36,276 nucleotides of DNA. Origin: a virus. The first letter of the stretch is position 1; every line of letters starts with the position of its first letter. Under the pieces are notes generated by a model, which saw only the letters and a list, made by a program, of their open reading frames with translations, was not told where the DNA came from and searched no databases. Where the stretch lies: the IMG/VR virus record IMGVR_UViG_3300042696_000147, positions 1 to 36,276 of that record; one strand, given 5' to 3'. Positions 2,150 through 28,909 of this stretch are shown one piece after another. Both the position numbers and the translations under genes were made by a program.

Positions 2150-2443
2150 TTAGAAGTAGGTTACGATTCCGCGTGGAGTGTGGATACGTCCGCTTCGCCA
2201 ACACATCAACTGCATGTTACCAGCTTTCACGGGGAAGCAAGCGTCTTGCATGAGGAAGTCTTGGCGGGGATTGGGACGCAGGGCTGGACCGAAGAGTTCG
2301 CGCGCAACATCCGCGATCTCATCCACCACATCGTACACTTCTGCTGGCAAGTTAGCAGCATTGGACCCCAAGTCAGTATCGGGGATTGATTCAAACTCCA
2401 TGGTCATGAGCTTTTGGAGTTTGTTGATCAGTCGATAAGGCAT
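2150..2443 (-). CDS. Hypothetical protein, 97 aa
   Basis: The protein starts MPYRLINKLQKLMTMEFESI. It has an acidic middle (AEVYDVVDEIADVARELF) likely to be helical, and two cysteines in the C-terminal half (MQDACFPVK and MQLMCWRSG). A strong AGGAGAAGG ribosome site precedes the ATG, which supports a real gene. It is convergent with the paralog pair and divergent from the 410-aa gene. I recognise no family. Confidence 0.75.
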   Translation of the reverse strand: MPYRLINKLQKLMTMEFESIPDTDLGSNAANLPAEVYDVVDEIADVARELFGPALRPNPRQDFLMQDACFPVKAGNMQLMCWRSGRIHTPRGIVTYF

Positions 2444-2599
2444 TGCCTTCTCCTAGAAACTCAACATAATAAAAAAAGATGTATTCAGTACACACCCGTT
2501 GCCTTATGGCAATAAATGATGTGTCATACCTATTCGTGTTTTTTCCTATAAAAAACAACTTTAATCCTGTGTGTAGTATCTCACCTTTAAAGGCTACCT
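2444..2599. promoter_or_regulatory. Divergent intergenic region, presumed promoters
   Basis: An A/T-rich spacer between divergent genes. It holds a small hairpin TTGCC-TTAT-GGCAA (2499-2512), whose loop and 3' arm contain TTATGG, and a perfect A/T hairpin GTTTTTT/AAAAAAC (2538-2556). TATG-type late promoters are expected in phiKZ relatives, but no single site can be assigned here. Confidence 0.4.
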
Positions 2600-3832
2600 A
2601 TGGATAAGAATATTCAAAGTGTGTTTGCGGACGAATGCGGGCATCTGGAAATCGATGCTAAATTCGTCAAACGCCTGCATGCTTATCAGGTCAGCTTTGT
2701 CAACAAGAACGATGACCACATCAAGTTCTTTGGCGGTAATTTGCTCGGTGTGGAAACCGTGCGTTTTCTCGACCAAGACCGTGATCGTTGGTTTGACGAA
2801 ATTCTTGAAGTGGACGATGGTCCGCTGGAAGAGCGTTTGTTGGCATTGCCCATGGTGAATTCGGAATTCCACGTTTCGAGTGACACCATGAACCTGTCGT
2901 GTGTTTGGCTGGCCCATGCCATTTTCACCAGCAAGAAATTGTCTGATGAACAGCGACACGAGGCACTCATTGACGTGATGCTCGTGTTGCAGTACAAGTT
3001 TTTCACCAGCCGATATTATCGTCACTTCCGTTATCCCGCAGATCGGGCAACCGCGGAAGCGACTTATGCGCAACTGTCCTATAAGTTCGATATCAAGACG
3101 TACGGCAGTTGGTCGGCACTGTTCCGTGCGCGTGCTGAAGATATCGTCGCCAAGACGAGTATTCATTACCGCACGATCACACACATGGACGATGATCGCA
3201 AAGTCATCTACATGCTCAACGATACCCAAGGCCGTATTCGGGATATGTTGAAAAATATCTATGACGTTTTTCTGCGTGTCCACCAGCAAGGCATTCGTAT
3301 TTCGTCAACCAGCTCCGTGATCGAACACGATGGCGTGGAAGTGTTGAAGGACAAGAGTCGCAATTTGTTGGCGTATGGTCGGTACATCAATTCGATCATT
3401 TCGGATCGCAATTCGTTCATGCGTGAAGAATTGATGGTGATCGTTGAGAAACTCATGCACACGATGCCGCCCAAGCTGTTCCGGGAGACACTCGAGTGGA
3501 TGTCCCACAACTACCGGCAGCGCGGCGCCAATGACATTGAGGAAACCCTCAATGAAACCTTGGTGCACAGCTTTGATTACTTCAGTGACAATCGCGAGGC
3601 TGTCCGTGATACGCATGACTTGCCAGGACTCTTGGCTCGTTTGCGTGGGGTGTACATGTCGTCCCGGTCGACTGACCCAGTGCTCTTTGCATTGCGTGAA
3701 AAGGTGGAAGGCATTGTGAAGAAAGCCACTGGGAATAAAAACACCTCTGTGATCGCCAGTGTGCGCACCGGTGTGTTGTTGTATGTCGTGCTCCGCGCCA
3801 TGACCATGACACACTACACCAAGGGCGCTTAG
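2600..3832 (+). CDS. Conserved jumbo-phage protein of unknown function, 410 aa
   Basis: The start (MDKNIQSVFADECGHLEI) follows a long divergent spacer. The protein is soluble and mostly helical by composition, with many charged pairs, and has no membrane segment. Visible landmarks are SWSALFRARAEDIVAKTSIH in the middle, FMREELMVIVEKLMHTMPP near residue 275, and a hydrophobic C-terminal helix (SVIASVRTGVLLYVVLRAM). I see no catalytic motif. Its size and its location beside the packaging and structural genes fit a phage virion or assembly protein, but this is inferred from context only. Confidence 0.85.
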   Translation: MDKNIQSVFADECGHLEIDAKFVKRLHAYQVSFVNKNDDHIKFFGGNLLGVETVRFLDQDRDRWFDEILEVDDGPLEERLLALPMVNSEFHVSSDTMNLSCVWLAHAIFTSKKLSDEQRHEALIDVMLVLQYKFFTSRYYRHFRYPADRATAEATYAQLSYKFDIKTYGSWSALFRARAEDIVAKTSIHYRTITHMDDDRKVIYMLNDTQGRIRDMLKNIYDVFLRVHQQGIRISSTSSVIEHDGVEVLKDKSRNLLAYGRYINSIISDRNSFMREELMVIVEKLMHTMPPKLFRETLEWMSHNYRQRGANDIEETLNETLVHSFDYFSDNREAVRDTHDLPGLLARLRGVYMSSRSTDPVLFALREKVEGIVKKATGNKNTSVIASVRTGVLLYVVLRAMTMTHYTKGA

Positions 3833-3862
3833 TTAGGCCCGTCACTTTTATGGGTTCTTCAA

Positions 3863-4297
3863 ATGACCAACGTCATCCCTAGGTTGCTTAGTTGGTTTCT
3901 TTTGTTTCTTCGTAAGTTGAAAGGGCAGTACAGCATTGAAGAAATCAAGCATCCCAAGAATGTTTTGGGGAGCTTGACTGGCTATTCGGTCTCGGGCTAC
4001 ACCATCGAGATCTTTTGCCAGCGAAGGCACTATCGTCGGTATTATGATCATTGGTTTGTTCCGAACGAAGACCATGTAGCTTACCATGTGTTTAGTACTG
4101 TATCGTCGGACGCCCCAGATATCCTCAAGAAAGCCTGTGAACTAGACCTTGACATCCCTGCACTGTTACCGTCTTTTGTGCCAGATGAAGGTCAGCGTGA
4201 AGAGGTGGTAAGGGCGTATCTCGACTTGCTCATTCAGCGTCTCGGTCAACACCGCGACATGGCGGATGAAAAGAACTTGGTCGTCACTTACAAGTAA
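3863..4297 (+). CDS. Hypothetical protein with N-terminal hydrophobic helix, 144 aa
   Basis: The N-terminus MTNVIPRLLSWFLLFLRKLK is a short hydrophobic segment ending in basic residues, so it could be a membrane anchor or amphipathic helix. The rest is soluble, with HYRRYYDHWFVPNEDH near residue 56 and an acidic C-terminal half. It begins 30 bases after the 410-aa gene, so they are probably co-transcribed, but there is no clear ribosome site, suggesting weak or coupled translation. No family recognised. Confidence 0.75.
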   Translation: MTNVIPRLLSWFLLFLRKLKGQYSIEEIKHPKNVLGSLTGYSVSGYTIEIFCQRRHYRRYYDHWFVPNEDHVAYHVFSTVSSDAPDILKKACELDLDIPALLPSFVPDEGQREEVVRAYLDLLIQRLGQHRDMADEKNLVVTYK

Positions 4298-22573: not shown

Positions 22574-25159
22574 TTACGACCGGTAGGCCGCTAGTGCTTT
22601 CTTTCCAATCACGTCCAGAAGCGTTGCGGTGGTGCCAATGGTGTCTGGAGAGGTCACGATACGATCGTCGATGGACTTCTTGCCGAAGACAGCATCGATG
22701 ACTTTGCCAGTTTCGGTTTTCATTTCACCAGTCATGACTTCAGAGAACACCGTCTTCATCTGGTTACAGAACACGCCTTTATCGCCCACACCAGCCGCCA
22801 CATCGGCAGTGATGTAAATGCGGATCGCGGCCGTATCCAATTGAAGCGGATCACCATCGACACGGAAGCCTTCGTCGACGCTACCAGTAAAGGCCTTCTT
22901 ACCAGCAGCCTTGTTGCGACGTGCCATCTCACGGTCCGACGCTGAAGCCAGTGCTCGCAAGGAGTCCGACATGTCTTCTTTGTCACCGTGGTAGAATACT
23001 TCAATGCGTTCGATGACGCCCTTGGCTTTGGCTTGCGGCGATTGACCACCCATCACACGCAGTGTGTCGAGCGATTCCTCGTCAAACAGACCAGAGTTGG
23101 CGGTGACGGCATCTTCAATTATGCATAAAATATCCTCGGGCTCCACGTTCTGACCGATCTTGGCCAGTTTGCGAACCGATTGATCGAAGTTCACCACAAT
23201 GGTTTTCACCTTCGTGGCTTTCGTCGACAAGAGTTCAGCCACACGCGGGGAAATGCTCGACGCGTCTTCCAGCGTTTGCGTCGATTCCAGCAGCACAGTT
23301 TTCACCATGATACCGGCTTTCCAGATCACGTTGCTCGGGTTCAGGATGTCTTTCTCGAAGAAGCCATCGTTGTAGCAAATGACATCGCCTTCCTTGAACT
23401 TTTGACCGACCCGCATTTCGGACACGACATTGTGCGGAATCGTCAGACCCGCTGCGTTGCCGAAACGACGACCCAGTTCAAAGCCCTTGGTTTCGCCATC
23501 ATCGTACTGAACAACAATCCCTTCTTCACTGACTGACACGACTTTACCCGGCTTCTTGGCCGTCATGGCAAACAGATCGCTCGTACGGTGCGGAACGACT
23601 TGCTCGTAACCAGTGCGCACAGGCGACTGCCGGTAACCCTTGCAGGCAATCCCGTGACCATGTTGAATACCCACGAAGTTCACACGTTTCGGGTCATCGC
23701 GGTCCGAACCCACCGAGATCAGCGCCGAAGTCGAGAGCAAAGCTGTCGCGCCCGTCTCACCGGTCTTGTAACGCTTACTGATGCCGCGCAGCGAGGTGAA
23801 CTGCGGGTCCGCACTCGTGTAGGTATTGATGGCCACGTCCGAGGAGTCCACAGTCGATTCGGAAATCGTTCCCATGTCATTCGGATGGTACAGTCGCGTA
23901 TGTTTGACCATGCTGCGGCTGCTACGACCGCCCGTGCCGTTATACGTCACGGCTTCCATTTCCTTCAGGTTTTGGATCGGGTTGATTTCGTTGACAATCG
24001 CAATCGACGGATCTTGGGCGATGTTCTTCCAGACCGCGTATGGATGCAAATCGATCGGCAGTTTGGATTTGCCAGCACGGCCTGCGTGCGCGCGCACCGA
24101 GCGCACCATCTCCGAATACACAGCACCTGCCATCCGCTCGTAACCCTTAATCCGCATGTAAGCCGGATCGAGTTCATGCGGGTGGTCATCCGTCATCAAC
24201 ATCGTGCACGAACGCATTAAGAGGCCCCGGAAGTCCGTCGGTTCTTTCATTTCCACCAGCAGGTCACGGGTGATCGGGTCCACGAAGAGGTTGTACAGAT
24301 GTTCGATCTCGCGCAGATAACGCACACCTGCACCACCAGACTCCAGCACGTTCAGGTACACAGCCCGTTTATCGAACTCGTACACACTGTAATTGCGGAT
24401 CGAGCGATGGTATTCGTTAAAGCCAGCCATGACAAGCGCGGCCAAACGATCTTCGCGATTGAAGACAAGCGTCTCATCGCTGAACACCACTTCGTATTCG
24501 TGCGGAGCCAGGTTCACACGCGTACCGGCTTGCACCCGACGCGGCGAGACGCCAAGAAGCGTCATGAGCTTTTCCAAGCCCAGCTCGTAACCCAACACGA
24601 CACCGATCGGGATGTTGACACCCAACACCTTCAGTTCGGCAAAGTCCACCGGGGCTTTTTCCGACGGCAAGTTCAAGATGCTTTCCAGCGTCCCGAAGTC
24701 TACCAGCGCATCCAGGTTCGAGACGTAAAGCGTACCGTCTTGATCCATGACGAGATAACGCTGACTGTGCACATCGTGACCGATGATGATTGCACCGTCT
24801 TTCTCGTACTTGGCCATCGCTTCTGCACCGAAGAGCGCTACGCGTTTGGTGTGGTCGAACGAGCAGTCGAACGCAATGTTCTTCATGTTCGCCGGCGTGA
24901 CGGTTGGTTTCAGCGTGAAACCACGGAACCCCATGGCAATTGCCGAGTACAGACGCGGCACCTTTTCCATGTTATCGAACACATCCGACGGTTGCAGATT
25001 GGTGATCGTCGTATTGACGTCGTCCAATCCCATGGCCATGATGTTGTTGCGCAGCCAGAGGCCGTAGTCGTTCACCCGCTTGGTCGAACGGGACACGAAC
25101 ACCTTGCCGTAATAACTCGTCAGAGCCACGCGGTCCGGTGCAATCTTACGGATGGGAAG
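22574..25159 (-). CDS. Virion RNA polymerase beta subunit, exon 2 (C-terminal 861 residues)
   Basis: This exon encodes the C-terminal part of the beta chain of the phage multisubunit RNA polymerase carried in the virion to transcribe early genes. Beta landmarks: RLYHPNDMGTISESTVDSSD (fork-loop region, cf. bacterial HPTHYGRVCPIETPEG), GIQHGHGIACKGYRQSPVRT (cf. ANMQRQAVPLL), and near the end AAGVGDKGVFCNQMKTVF (cf. the KLAGRHGNKG block). The open frame could start with TTG at 25171, but no strong ribosome site precedes it and the conserved protein begins before this point. I join it to exon 1 at 27110 by intron splicing (phase 0, GAT|CTT), giving 1,461 residues and the junction RKQRGD-LPIRKI. 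Confidence 0.85.
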   Translation of the reverse strand, partial: LPIRKIAPDRVALTSYYGKVFVSRSTKRVNDYGLWLRNNIMAMGLDDVNTTITNLQPSDVFDNMEKVPRLYSAIAMGFRGFTLKPTVTPANMKNIAFDCSFDHTKRVALFGAEAMAKYEKDGAIIIGHDVHSQRYLVMDQDGTLYVSNLDALVDFGTLESILNLPSEKAPVDFAELKVLGVNIPIGVVLGYELGLEKLMTLLGVSPRRVQAGTRVNLAPHEYEVVFSDETLVFNREDRLAALVMAGFNEYHRSIRNYSVYEFDKRAVYLNVLESGGAGVRYLREIEHLYNLFVDPITRDLLVEMKEPTDFRGLLMRSCTMLMTDDHPHELDPAYMRIKGYERMAGAVYSEMVRSVRAHAGRAGKSKLPIDLHPYAVWKNIAQDPSIAIVNEINPIQNLKEMEAVTYNGTGGRSSRSMVKHTRLYHPNDMGTISESTVDSSDVAINTYTSADPQFTSLRGISKRYKTGETGATALLSTSALISVGSDRDDPKRVNFVGIQHGHGIACKGYRQSPVRTGYEQVVPHRTSDLFAMTAKKPGKVVSVSEEGIVVQYDDGETKGFELGRRFGNAAGLTIPHNVVSEMRVGQKFKEGDVICYNDGFFEKDILNPSNVIWKAGIMVKTVLLESTQTLEDASSISPRVAELLSTKATKVKTIVVNFDQSVRKLAKIGQNVEPEDILCIIEDAVTANSGLFDEESLDTLRVMGGQSPQAKAKGVIERIEVFYHGDKEDMSDSLRALASASDREMARRNKAAGKKAFTGSVDEGFRVDGDPLQLDTAAIRIYITADVAAGVGDKGVFCNQMKTVFSEVMTGEMKTETGKVIDAVFGKKSIDDRIVTSPDTIGTTATLLDVIGKKALAAYRS

Positions 25160-25169
25160 CACTCCCATC
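25151..25169 (-). promoter_or_regulatory. Hairpin presenting the 3' splice site
   Basis: On the minus strand GATGGGA and TCCCATC form a 7-bp stem with a 5-base loop GTGCT. The proposed 3' splice site (after G25160, before C25159) lies in the loop, half in intron and half in exon 2. It could expose the splice site or compete with the P10 pairing. Confidence 0.5.
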
Positions 25170-25583
25170 AAAAGTGGACCATATCTTCATCCTTTCCGTT
25201 TCTCGGAGTTAGGATGCCTATCGTTTCGGTCGAAGTCTAACATCTTCGAGATCTATCGATCACGCACAAACTTCGTACGTCCTACTCTACTCGCTTTAAT
25301 CATCTCAATTGATGACCACTTGACTTTATACAAGTGTGACTCTACATTTCTGTAATAGCTTTCGATGGCCTCTGAGCCCACTCCATACATCTTAGATGCT
25401 TAGGAGCTTTGCTGCGTCGGTTATGTCTTTCAACAACGTTTTAACCATGCCTGATTGGATCATTACCCTACAGGTATTGTGCTGCGTTTCCACGCACAAG
25501 TGGTAGAAGTTGAAATTATAGACGTTTTCCCGCAATTAGATAGGTTTTACAACGACTGTATTTCCTACAGTCTGGTGACCTTG

Positions 25584-25612
25584 ATGAATAAAGAATACTT
25601 CTTACAAAATCT
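25584..25612. repeat. Right arm of a 29-base inverted repeat flanking the endonuclease gene
   Basis: This arm is complementary in RNA to the start of the endonuclease gene (27040-27068): one A-A mismatch and two G-U wobbles in 29 positions. It lies directly next to the intron guide sequence (25573-25579), so pairing would bring guide and 5' splice site together across about 1.5 kb. Confidence 0.85.
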
Positions 25613-27068
25613 AAAACAAAGTTTTGATATTGGTGTATTTCTGAGTCAAAAATAACTCAAGATTGCGGACTAGAATGTCTAATGGAATATCGAACCTTTT
25701 GTAGACGTCCATCGCTGTTTTGCATGTGATGATTTTATCATCAACAAGAAACCAATACCTATAAACTTTTCTTAGTCTTCTAATCAATTCATTTTCGACA
25801 GAACCGTCTCGAAGATTGAGATAATTCAAGACAATCAAATTACCGCCAGCTTCAGCGACAAGTGATCTCTTAATCTCATCTCTTTCCTTGGTTCCCTGAT
25901 GACCTTCATCTCCGCCGAAGAGTTCCACCGGCATGTAGTGCTGGTGACCATGAAATTCAATATAAATGTTGAATTCTGGTAAGAAGAAATCAAAACGATA
26001 TCGGTGAGGGAATAGTTGATATTCCCGGACATGTTTGATACCATATTTCTTCAAAACTACTTCGATGGCTTTTTCACCTTTCGATTCAAAGCAAAGTCTA
26101 CATCCATTTTTAGAACTAACGTGGCTATTTGGTTTTTGCCAAAAAGAACCATGCTGGTGACAGATAATTTCAACAGGTTCTTTATTGCCACAATACTTAA
26201 CTTTGCTATAGTCGTAGGTGTCGCCATGTGCCTCTCTAGCGTTTTTGATGAAGTCCTCTGTCGACAACGTGTTTTCTTCCCTGAAACATTTTTTACACTT
26301 AGATCCGTCCAAATGTGACGCTGCTCGTTGTTTAAAATCACCATGTTTCTTGCAAGTGATTGTAACTAACGATGCGGTTGTTTCTAATACCACTTTCCCA
26401 TATTCGTATTTTTCGCCATGTATCTTCTTAGACTTCTTAATAAAATCATCTAAGGTCAGCCTGCTGTTGTCTTTAACACATTTCGGACAATCAGTTTTTT
26501 TGACAGCATGCGAATAAGGGTTTTGCCAAAAAGAACCATGAGTGCGGCAGATAATTTCTACATCTTCATTGGCGTTGATGTAATTGACCTTGCTATAGTC
26601 GTATTTATCACCATGTACTCTTCTGGCTTTTTCGAGCATTTCAGATTTCCTAATAGCTCGTGGTATTTCGTTGTCACATTGTTGACATCCGTGTATAGAA
26701 CGGTAGTGTTGATCTGGAGTGATTAGAAACTCACCATGATCTGGACATGTTAGTGTCACAACCGTGTCTTTTCGAATGTAATGAACTTTTGAGTAATCGA
26801 ATTTTTCACCAAATCTCTTTTTTGATTTGGTGATGAAACGTTCGCTATTAAGCGCTCGATTATTATCGCACTTGATTCTTCCACAAACTCGACATCCAGC
26901 TCCAGATAGATGCTGATGTGCTTTCTGGTGAAATAATCCATGATGAATGCAAGTTATTGCTATCTTGTCGTGCGATAGAAAAGTTTCAGGAAGAAGATCG
27001 TAATTGTACTCTTCTGGAATTGATCCTCTCTTTTCAGAGAGTTTTTGTAAGAAGTATCCCTTATTCAT
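25611..27068 (-). CDS. Intron-encoded homing endonuclease, Vsr/EDxHD type, 485 aa
   Basis: The enzyme presumably cuts intronless beta genes to spread the intron. Residues 30-326 hold five repeats of about 65 residues, each with C-x2-H ... C-x2-C zinc ligands (C40/H43/C59/C62; C108/H111/C128/C131; C174/H177/C194/C197; C239/H242/C258/C261; C303/H306/C323/C326); repeats 2-5 also share HGxxYDYSKV. A nuclease domain follows: E332, D360 in YRFDFFLPEFN, H377 in EFHGHQHY and D397 in KERDEIKRS, the EDxHD pattern. The last 60 residues could be an extra DNA-binding helix pair. Its ribosome site is poor and its start lies in a long RNA helix, so translation should be low. A/T-rich codons set it apart from all neighbours, a sign of transfer. 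Confidence 0.88.
   Translation of the reverse strand: MNKGYFLQKLSEKRGSIPEEYNYDLLPETFLSHDKIAITCIHHGLFHQKAHQHLSGAGCRVCGRIKCDNNRALNSERFITKSKKRFGEKFDYSKVHYIRKDTVVTLTCPDHGEFLITPDQHYRSIHGCQQCDNEIPRAIRKSEMLEKARRVHGDKYDYSKVNYINANEDVEIICRTHGSFWQNPYSHAVKKTDCPKCVKDNSRLTLDDFIKKSKKIHGEKYEYGKVVLETTASLVTITCKKHGDFKQRAASHLDGSKCKKCFREENTLSTEDFIKNAREAHGDTYDYSKVKYCGNKEPVEIICHQHGSFWQKPNSHVSSKNGCRLCFESKGEKAIEVVLKKYGIKHVREYQLFPHRYRFDFFLPEFNIYIEFHGHQHYMPVELFGGDEGHQGTKERDEIKRSLVAEAGGNLIVLNYLNLRDGSVENELIRRLRKVYRYWFLVDDKIITCKTAMDVYKRFDIPLDILVRNLELFLTQKYTNIKTLF
27040..27068. repeat. Left arm of the inverted repeat, covering the endonuclease start codon
   Basis: Pairs with 25584-25612. The arm begins at the ATG of the endonuclease gene and covers its first ten codons. 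A second small inverted repeat (CTCATT/AATGAG, 27061-27103 region) lies between it and the 5' splice site. Confidence 0.8.
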
Positions 27069-27109
27069 TTCTCATTATGCGTTTGTTAGATCACACAATG
27101 AGACTGTTA

Positions 27110-28909
27110 ATCACCACGCTGCTTACGCATGCGGTACTTGATGCCGTTGGCCATGTACGTACCGTCTTCTTCCAACGCCGGCAGTTTGAAGCGGAACGTC
27201 GACGCCGCACCTTCCACTGGCGTGCAGCGGATCGTGTAGTCGTCGTACGCACCCATCACGTCTTCGACGCGTTCTTTCTCGTAACCGGTGATGGCGATAC
27301 CTGCATTTTGCAGATTCAGTACCATGCCCGATACGTCGCGATCCATCACCTTCTTGATGTAATGGGTATCGAATGCATGCAGGCTCGACTTGAGCATCGT
27401 CTTATCGATGACGGTCTTGATGTCTTTGATGGCGGGGGACGATTCGATCTTGAGCAGATGCGGCTCGATCGTGGCGAATTCTCCCAGATGCGACTTGCCA
27501 TCTGGCGCCGTGATCGTCTTGTACGACTGGGACAGCTGTTGATAGTGACGATACTGCGCAGCCGACAGCAGACCTTGGTCAGCCAACCGGTCACACACTT
27601 TCATCACACCTGACTCAGGCGTCCGGGCATCTTCGATGACGATCTCTTGCTTTTCGCCTTCGTGCGGACCGACGTGGTTCTTGGAGATGGTTTCCAGCTC
27701 AGCCAGATCTTTCGTCAGCTGAGCTTCGAATTCGTCGTCATGCTTGATATCGTCCGCAGTATCGTCCGGCGTATCCAGGTCGTGACCCTTCATGGCTTCC
27801 GTCGGCAACTTCGTTGTGGTTGATGGTGTCGAGATCACACCACTACCATTGTCCTTCGGAATCACTGGATCTTGCTTGACAACTTGTACGGTGTTTTCCA
27901 CCAGCTTCTTCGCGTCTTCCACGCCCTTCTTGCCATCGATGGCGGCTTCCACTTCAGGCGCGGCCACCGTACGCACTTGGAAGAGTGACATGGTCATGCG
28001 AAGGAACCGGCGTTGGAATTGACGCGCATCCAAACCCTTGGTATTCGCCTTCGGGTTGGCTGCCAGTTCTTCTTCCGTGGCTTGACGCCAGCTATTGAGC
28101 AGGCCCAGGTTCATGACGAACCAGCGACCCGACTCTTGGAAGATGATGTTGACTTTGTTCAGCTGATCTTCTGCCACATGGTTAATGACCGAGTCTTTAC
28201 GTTGCGCACCAAACCATTTCCACAGTTCGAGAATCATCAAGGATTCCGGCGTATTGAAAATCTTGATGACCTTTTGCGAAATCGCACCCGAACCAATGTT
28301 CAAGTCCGACACACTCGGCAATACCGTCGGCAATTTGCAGACGATGAAGTGCTGACGGTCGTTTTGCTTGGCCACGTCACCGATGGTTTTCCACACCGAC
28401 GATTGGATGTTCCACCACTTGTAGTACTCGCTGTAAAACGAGCGGGCATAATGGTACAGCTGCGGGATGAAGCCGTAGTTATACACCAAGAGCGTGTTCT
28501 GGTCACGGGTGGCCATTTCCAGATTGCGCATCGGTTTATAGCGGCGGTGCTTGATGTGGTACTGACGAATCAACGTATCGACCGCCACGGTCAAGCGACG
28601 CGGCACACCTTTGCTGTCCCCATTCGTCGTGATGTGCGCCATCTGGATCGGACGATTGATGTGTCGAAACATGAATTCGTCGGACGCCGGACCCGAGTCG
28701 AGCGGACTCATCGATACGTGGTGATAAATCGACTTGCGCGGTAGATCGAGGTCTTCCAAATTCGGCATGATTGGCGTCGTCAGGTGCTGCGCCTTACGAA
28801 TGCCAAACCGCTTGTAGAAGAAATCGTAGAAGAACATGGACTCAAGCGAGATGTCGCCTTGCGCCATGATCTGCGATTCCAATGCAAGATTAATAGGGCC
28901 TTGATACAT
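27110..28909 (-). CDS. Virion RNA polymerase beta subunit, exon 1 (N-terminal 600 residues)
   Basis: Starts MYQGPINLALESQIMAQGDI, 12 bases after the beta' stop. Its last residues, KLPALEEDGTYMANGIKYRM then RKQRGD, match the beta N-terminal signature (bacterial GxFVINGxERVIVSQ), so the chain is cut in the middle of a conserved beta region and continues in exon 2. That signature lies near residue 140 in bacterial beta but near 585 here, so there is a long phage-specific N-terminal extension, including a Lys/Asp/Thr-rich linker around residues 330-400. GAT at 27112-27110 is the last exon codon; the following TAA belongs to the intron. Without splicing only a 600-residue fragment would be made. 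Confidence 0.88.

Follow-up and report, generated by a model that had tools for sequence, protein, structure and literature searches.

The group I introns of the T4 genes td, nrdB and nrdD carry their open reading frames in P6a or P9 loops, and in the Tetrahymena intron a short, non-coding helix lengthens P1 and reportedly, in the work of Guo and Cech of 2002 as cited in PMC3984707, matters for self-splicing in cells. The T4 introns, with their enzymes I-TevI, I-TevIII and I-TevII (PMC2988022), are phage group I introns whose endonuclease gene lies in a loop and whose ribosome-binding site is hidden by a hairpin; in td, breaking the hairpin over the I-TevI ribosome site reduces splicing (PMC2988022). 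In the nuclear rDNA introns S1389 of Trichia and Brefeldia, according to the accessible part of the source (PMC8395846), the endonuclease gene extends P1; these introns reside in eukaryotic rRNA and encode His-Cys box enzymes, and that part of the article does not mention a start-codon clamp. For gp210 of phage PhiPA3, whose intron lies in the vRNAP beta gene, the accessible part of PMC11620839 describes the endonuclease and does not mention an RNA structure that closes P1.

The intron analysed here combines such elements. Like the Tetrahymena helix and the S1389 arrangement it has a lengthened P1, with the endonuclease gene inside it. The T4 introns use a local hairpin upstream of the gene, to which the present intron adds a pairing of the first codons over 1.4 kb that extends P1. 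With the gp210 intron (PMC11620839) and other introns at about codon 493 it shares the host gene family, the phage group, the placement of the endonuclease in P1 and the closure of P1 by a helix, whereas these differ in insertion site, in their HNH/NUMOD enzyme and in being closed by the first intron bases. Taken singly, none of the components is new: P1 loops that hold an endonuclease gene (PMC8395846) and ribosome sites that are hidden (PMC2988022) have been described, and so have helices that extend P1; in the open-access literature we found no report of a start codon acting as a strand of a P1 clamp. To the question of how a kilobase gene is tolerated exactly where the splice site must meet the guide, this intron family would give an answer with a long helix made from the gene's own first codons, and its natural covariation can guide the choice of mutants.

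The intron and its endonuclease gene

The window (the whole stretch of DNA analysed, 36,276 nucleotides) is a 36-kb phage fragment. On its minus strand lies an RNA polymerase beta gene of the phiKZ type, an orthologue of PHIKZ178, with the following features.

27110-28909, minus strand: 5' exon of the RNA polymerase beta gene, ending ...KQRGD (open spliced frame, junction as in intronless relatives)
22577-25159, minus strand: 3' exon of the same gene, starting LPIRK...
25160-27109, minus strand: group I intron of 1950 nt, beginning UAA, last base G (RF00028 match and junction)
25154-25636, minus strand: Rfam group I intron match, catalytic core (RF00028, 57.8 bits, cut-off 50)
27110-27116, minus strand: 5' strand of P1, exon UGGUGAU, pairing with the guide 25579-25573
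25573-25579, minus strand: internal guide sequence GUCACCA, 3' strand of P1
25554-25572, minus strand: P2 hairpin, GACUGUA-GGAAA-UACAGUC
25151-25169, minus strand: hairpin spanning the 3' splice site, in which GAUGGGA of the intron pairs with UCCCAUC of the exon (covarying in most same-site introns)
25611-27068, minus strand: homing endonuclease gene, 485 aa, zinc-ribbon (DUF723-like) repeats and C-terminal Vsr/EDxHD-like nuclease domain (Pfam DUF723; PHROG 559/681; fold)
25809-26081, minus strand: predicted nuclease domain, approximately residues 330-420, with invariant E349, D360, E371 and QH376-377 (alignment and fold search)

Joining the exons at the splice sites 27110|27109 and 25160|25159 (minus strand), the 5' exon ending in GAU, yields a stop-free frame of 1461 amino acids whose junction KQRGD|LPIRK is identical in an intronless relative (L016, 84% identical). 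A splice site after GAUU was considered and ruled out, as the intronless relatives and the last intron G demand GAU|U. In 13 of the 17 same-site introns, among them that of the window (27112-27107), an in-frame stop (GAU UAA or GAU UGA) lies at the 5' splice site; L013, L177, L178 and L183 are without it. The conserved P3-P8 core (by covariance model), the U-G wobble of the splice site in which P1 terminates (U27110-G25579), the last G and the in-frame exons are all present in the window, whose intron is a predicted self-splicing group I intron. Flanked by the exon strand (27110) on one side and the guide (25579) on the other, which are the two strands of P1, the endonuclease gene (27068-25611) is situated in the P1 loop, as the initial annotation had read it.

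The 3' splice site is itself placed in a hairpin loop, the 3' end of the intron pairing with the codons that open the 3' exon. A hairpin occupies the same place in L040, L070, L050, L003, L008, L061, L011, L010, L036, L038, L183 and L178, and its intron strand varies along with the exon codons (GAUGGGA/UCCCAUC, GAAUUGG/CCAAUUC, GAAUCGG/CCGAUUC).

The encoded protein is a predicted Vsr/EDxHD-like homing endonuclease: the best PDB matches to a model of its C-terminal domain were Vsr (1cw0) and I-Bth0305I (3r3p), with a probability of 1.00 and E-values of only 0.003-0.009. It shares the fold of this domain with I-Bth0305I and the Vsr nucleases and, unlike them, has tandem zinc-ribbon repeats as its DNA-binding part. 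Of the loci of related endonucleases L137-L176, only L165 gave a hit to a core of the window's intron family, and this hit was weak and partial; a scan of 19 related-endonuclease loci found no Rfam intron. Most of the endonucleases of L137-L176 thus look free-standing. L136 is a second copy of L070 and has an intron core of the window's family.

The clamp helix in the window and in same-site introns

Three further features, all on the minus strand, lie in the P1 loop; we call the long helix formed by the last two the clamp.

27070-27103, minus strand: leader hairpin of 12 bp (27103-27092/27081-27070), over the ribosome-binding region, between the 5' splice site and the start codon
27040-27068, minus strand: 5' arm of the clamp, comprising the start codon and approximately the first 10 codons of the endonuclease (inverted repeat, duplex energy)
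25584-25612, minus strand: 3' arm of the clamp, which starts at the endonuclease stop codon, ends 4 nt short of the guide and is almost entirely non-coding (inverted repeat; covaries with the 5' arm in homologues)

The two arms of 29 nt (27068-27040/25612-25584) form 26 Watson-Crick pairs, two G-U pairs and one mismatch, exactly the pairing first noticed, and both are intronic, the helix lying entirely within the intron. Nowhere else in the 36-kb window are two 29-nt arms complementary at 26 or more of their 29 positions. The duplex has an energy of -39.7 kcal/mol, which corresponds to a z-score of -9.8 against 300 shuffles of the 3' arm (mononucleotide shuffles, as for all z-scores given here), none of them as good, and none of 265 other positions in the P1 loop pairs as well. 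In an unconstrained minimum free energy (MFE) fold of the whole 2-kb region, the clamp, P1 and the 12-bp leader hairpin appear together; the leader hairpin (z -4.7) had escaped the initial annotation.

Same-site introns were found in phage contigs and in the Vibrio phage vB_pir03 by means of the exon protein and of DNA motifs of the intron core; the endonuclease protein, used as a query against viral contigs, returned no loci. Besides the window, 11 of them have a gene or a remnant in P1 (L040, L070, L050, L003, L008, L061, L013, L001, L011, L177 and L183), the gene being broken in L050 and decayed in L011. Introns without a gene at this site are L010 and L038, with loops of about a dozen nucleotides, and L036, L045 and L178. 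The homologous introns were checked for missing complementarity between the arms, and every gene-bearing intron at this site keeps the pairing of the start-codon region with the segment directly before the guide, as with CAAGGCUACUUAUUUAAA/UUUAAAUAAGUAGCCUUG in L040 and ACAAAAGGUAUUUCAUAGA/UCUAUGAAAUACCUUUUGU in L177. The latter intron and the full region of L183 were found only after the hypothesis had been framed, and both fit: the L183 clamp is modest, and that of L177 (-41.5 kcal/mol, z -9.2, best of its row and column) is stronger than the window's. Weak clamps occur in L050 (z -2.4, equalled by 15 of 145 other loop windows) and in L001 (z -2.2, 17 of 188).

When the P1 domains were condensed with an artificial A20 linker and folded, the same junction was obtained in 12/12 introns, namely P1 (7-10 bp), leader hairpin, clamp and then P2, L001 having no clear P2. 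The distance from the end of the clamp to the guide is 0-4 nt in 11 of the 12, in agreement with the earlier suggestion that the helix adjoins the splice site and the guide. The leader hairpin is present in all 12 introns with differing sequence (z -3.2 to -5.2).

Complementarity of the arms is specific to each intron. In an arm-swap matrix of the 12 introns, the total of the cognate energies is -336.3, compared with a permutation mean of -172.8 (sd 19.4); none of 300,000 permutations is as low, and the off-diagonal energies average -13.2. The longest uninterrupted cognate helices have 26, 19 and 18 bp, compared with a maximum of 13 among the 132 non-cognate pairs. Changes on both sides were counted at 15 of 27 helix positions (gene nt 0-26; window, L040, L070 and L050), a count which leans to pairing because the pairs were taken from each sequence's own best duplex, a lean from which the arm-swap test is free. 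Long (485 aa) and short (approximately 370 aa) endonucleases start at non-homologous protein positions, and in each family it is the gene's own start that pairs with its own pre-guide segment. The arm sequences vary, and complementarity is good only within one intron. Since eleven related introns keep it with different letters, we take it as almost certain that the clamp is a genuine RNA structure under selection; selection on the RNA, first suspected from the wobble pairs, is borne out by arms that compensate across the 12 same-site introns.

Two of these loci deserve separate description. In L011 (1022-1201), the endonuclease gene is reduced to approximately 120 nt, and leader hairpin and clamp are both kept. 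L001 corresponds to MT811961 (vB_pir03) 2388-3935, from a cultured Vibrio phage, whose record shows the polymerase gene as split and otherwise lists hypothetical proteins only.

Possible roles of the clamp

Judging from these comparisons and folds, the clamp is probably a conserved P1 extension that holds the 5' splice site at the guide over a loop of more than 1 kb and that, together with the leader hairpin, silences translation of the endonuclease. P1, leader hairpin and clamp make up one predicted junction in the RNA that runs from the 5' splice site to the guide, and all 12 introns keep it with compensating sequences; by closing the coding loop of more than 1 kb, the clamp would present the 5' splice site to the guide, so that the RNA could be spliced despite the inserted gene. 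Because the start of the gene is one strand of the clamp, the complete intron RNA, spliced or unspliced, would be poorly translated. The endonuclease would be kept low and made mainly from RNA without a clamp (3'-incomplete, cut or partly opened), and the in-frame stop at the splice site would stop exon ribosomes from entering the clamp. The comparison suggests that the clamp is kept in the first place for splicing and not for gene regulation, because its adjacency to P1 is constant and its coverage of the start codon is not, and because in L011, where the loss of the gene may be recent, it outlives the gene. Silencing of the endonuclease is likely a second effect. For catalysis as such the clamp appears dispensable, since the gene-less introns with minimal loops (L010 and L038) need none.

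Conversely, clamp and leader hairpin might be primarily a translational off-switch that keeps the enzyme low and late, the effect on splicing being secondary. Such a role would suit the leader hairpin, which covers the ribosome-binding region upstream of the start in 12/12 introns (the Shine-Dalgarno match being weak in several), the predicted openness of the window's start codon, which drops from 0.59 without the 3' arm to 0.07 with it, and the use of hairpins over the ribosome-binding site by T4 intron endonucleases (PMC2988022). However, the leader hairpin alone is predicted to close the ribosome site already, whether or not the clamp is present; the clamp always abuts the guide and outlasts the decay of the gene in L011; and the codon-493 introns shut P1 without the start of the gene. 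We therefore regard an off-switch as the primary function as unlikely. Since loss of the I-TevI hairpin lowers splicing in T4, a phage that does not keep transcription apart from translation, both pressures, on splicing and on translation, are plausible.

The window belongs to a giant phage, probably a nucleus-forming one (Chimalliviridae). The nuclear-shell protein (chimallin) is not encoded in the 36-kb fragment; it is encoded by the closest relative, G001, and also by G002, G003, G008, G012, G013, vB_pir03 and PhiPA3. In nucleus-forming phages, transcription and translation are separated (PMC12908238), and as the relatives encode the shell protein, ribosomes probably meet the intron RNA only once it is complete, splicing preceding translation. 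Co-transcriptional translation before the 3' arm exists, possible in an ordinary phage, is unlikely if a nucleus forms. A more far-reaching proposal, that the endonuclease gene's start was recruited as a strand of the ribozyme's substrate domain, a single helix thereby both enabling splicing in the phage nucleus and silencing the endonuclease on each finished intron RNA, which is then released by specific cutting or unwinding of the RNA in the cytoplasm, seems doubtful to us.

We give little credence to a strict switch, in which the helix lets a given precursor be spliced or be translated, never both, as the initial annotation had it. What stands of this reading is that the helix is real and shares its bases with the start codon in 9 of the 12 introns (the codon being wholly or mostly inside the clamp), where an initiating ribosome must open the helix. 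The three others have their start codon elsewhere: in L003 and L001 it takes part in local pairing, and in L177 it is free, just outside the clamp. The exclusion itself does not follow, because the clamp is all-intronic and remains in the excised intron, so that excision does not free the start codon; furthermore, relatives encode the nuclear-shell protein, in a group where transcription and translation are apart (PMC12908238). Freeing of the start codon by splicing is ruled out on the same ground. An internal late promoter, from which transcripts would start past the hairpin, was also considered as a release route and appears unlikely: its TATG motif is found in the leader of 7 of the 12 introns, is not conserved, and is missing from the window.

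That the arms are terminal inverted repeats or a DNA palindrome, kept for gene mobility or by templated repair with no selection on the RNA, is very improbable. Several introns do have near-perfect arms, with unbroken runs of 19 pairs in L177 and 18 in L040; this, and a share of G-U pairs of 8% in the cognate as against 14% in the non-cognate duplexes, speaks for DNA repeats. But terminal repeats would be common to the elements, and these arms are not; their register is set by guide and start codon; two of the window's pairs are G-U, and in L070 single bases bulge out on one side; and in the same introns the leader and 3'-splice-site hairpins are also kept with changing sequence. Chance complementarity, for which nothing speaks beyond the A+T-rich sequence, has a next to negligible probability given a pairing that is unique in the window (z -9.8), recurs in eleven homologues and withstands the arm-swap test.

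For the reading we prefer, a P1 extension with silencing of the endonuclease as a second effect, the position of the 3' arm matters: as it is not part of the coding sequence, mutations in it leave the protein intact, and splicing and endonuclease synthesis thereby become cleanly separable. Moreover, nucleus-forming phages, where transcription and translation are apart, offer a test of whether the classical conflict between ribosome and splicing applies at all.

Introns at other sites of the polymerase gene

Introns with endonuclease genes in P1 also occur at a site near codon 493 (L034, L036, L037, L039 and PhiPA3 gp210, the intron of the latter being L130) and at a third site (L032), the enzymes being of the HNH/NUMOD type where scanned. 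Their P1 loop is shut by a helix that starts directly past the 5' splice site, several of these helices being weak (z -0.6 to -5.3), and the start of the gene is not the main clamp strand, either in the codon-493 introns or in L032. Because introns at other sites of the same gene also close P1, the closing of a coding P1 loop by a helix looks like a general rule, of which the use of the gene's own start would be the special solution of the window's family. Finally, the 209-kb contig of L045 (G012) has ten group I intron matches, several of them paired a few hundred bases apart.
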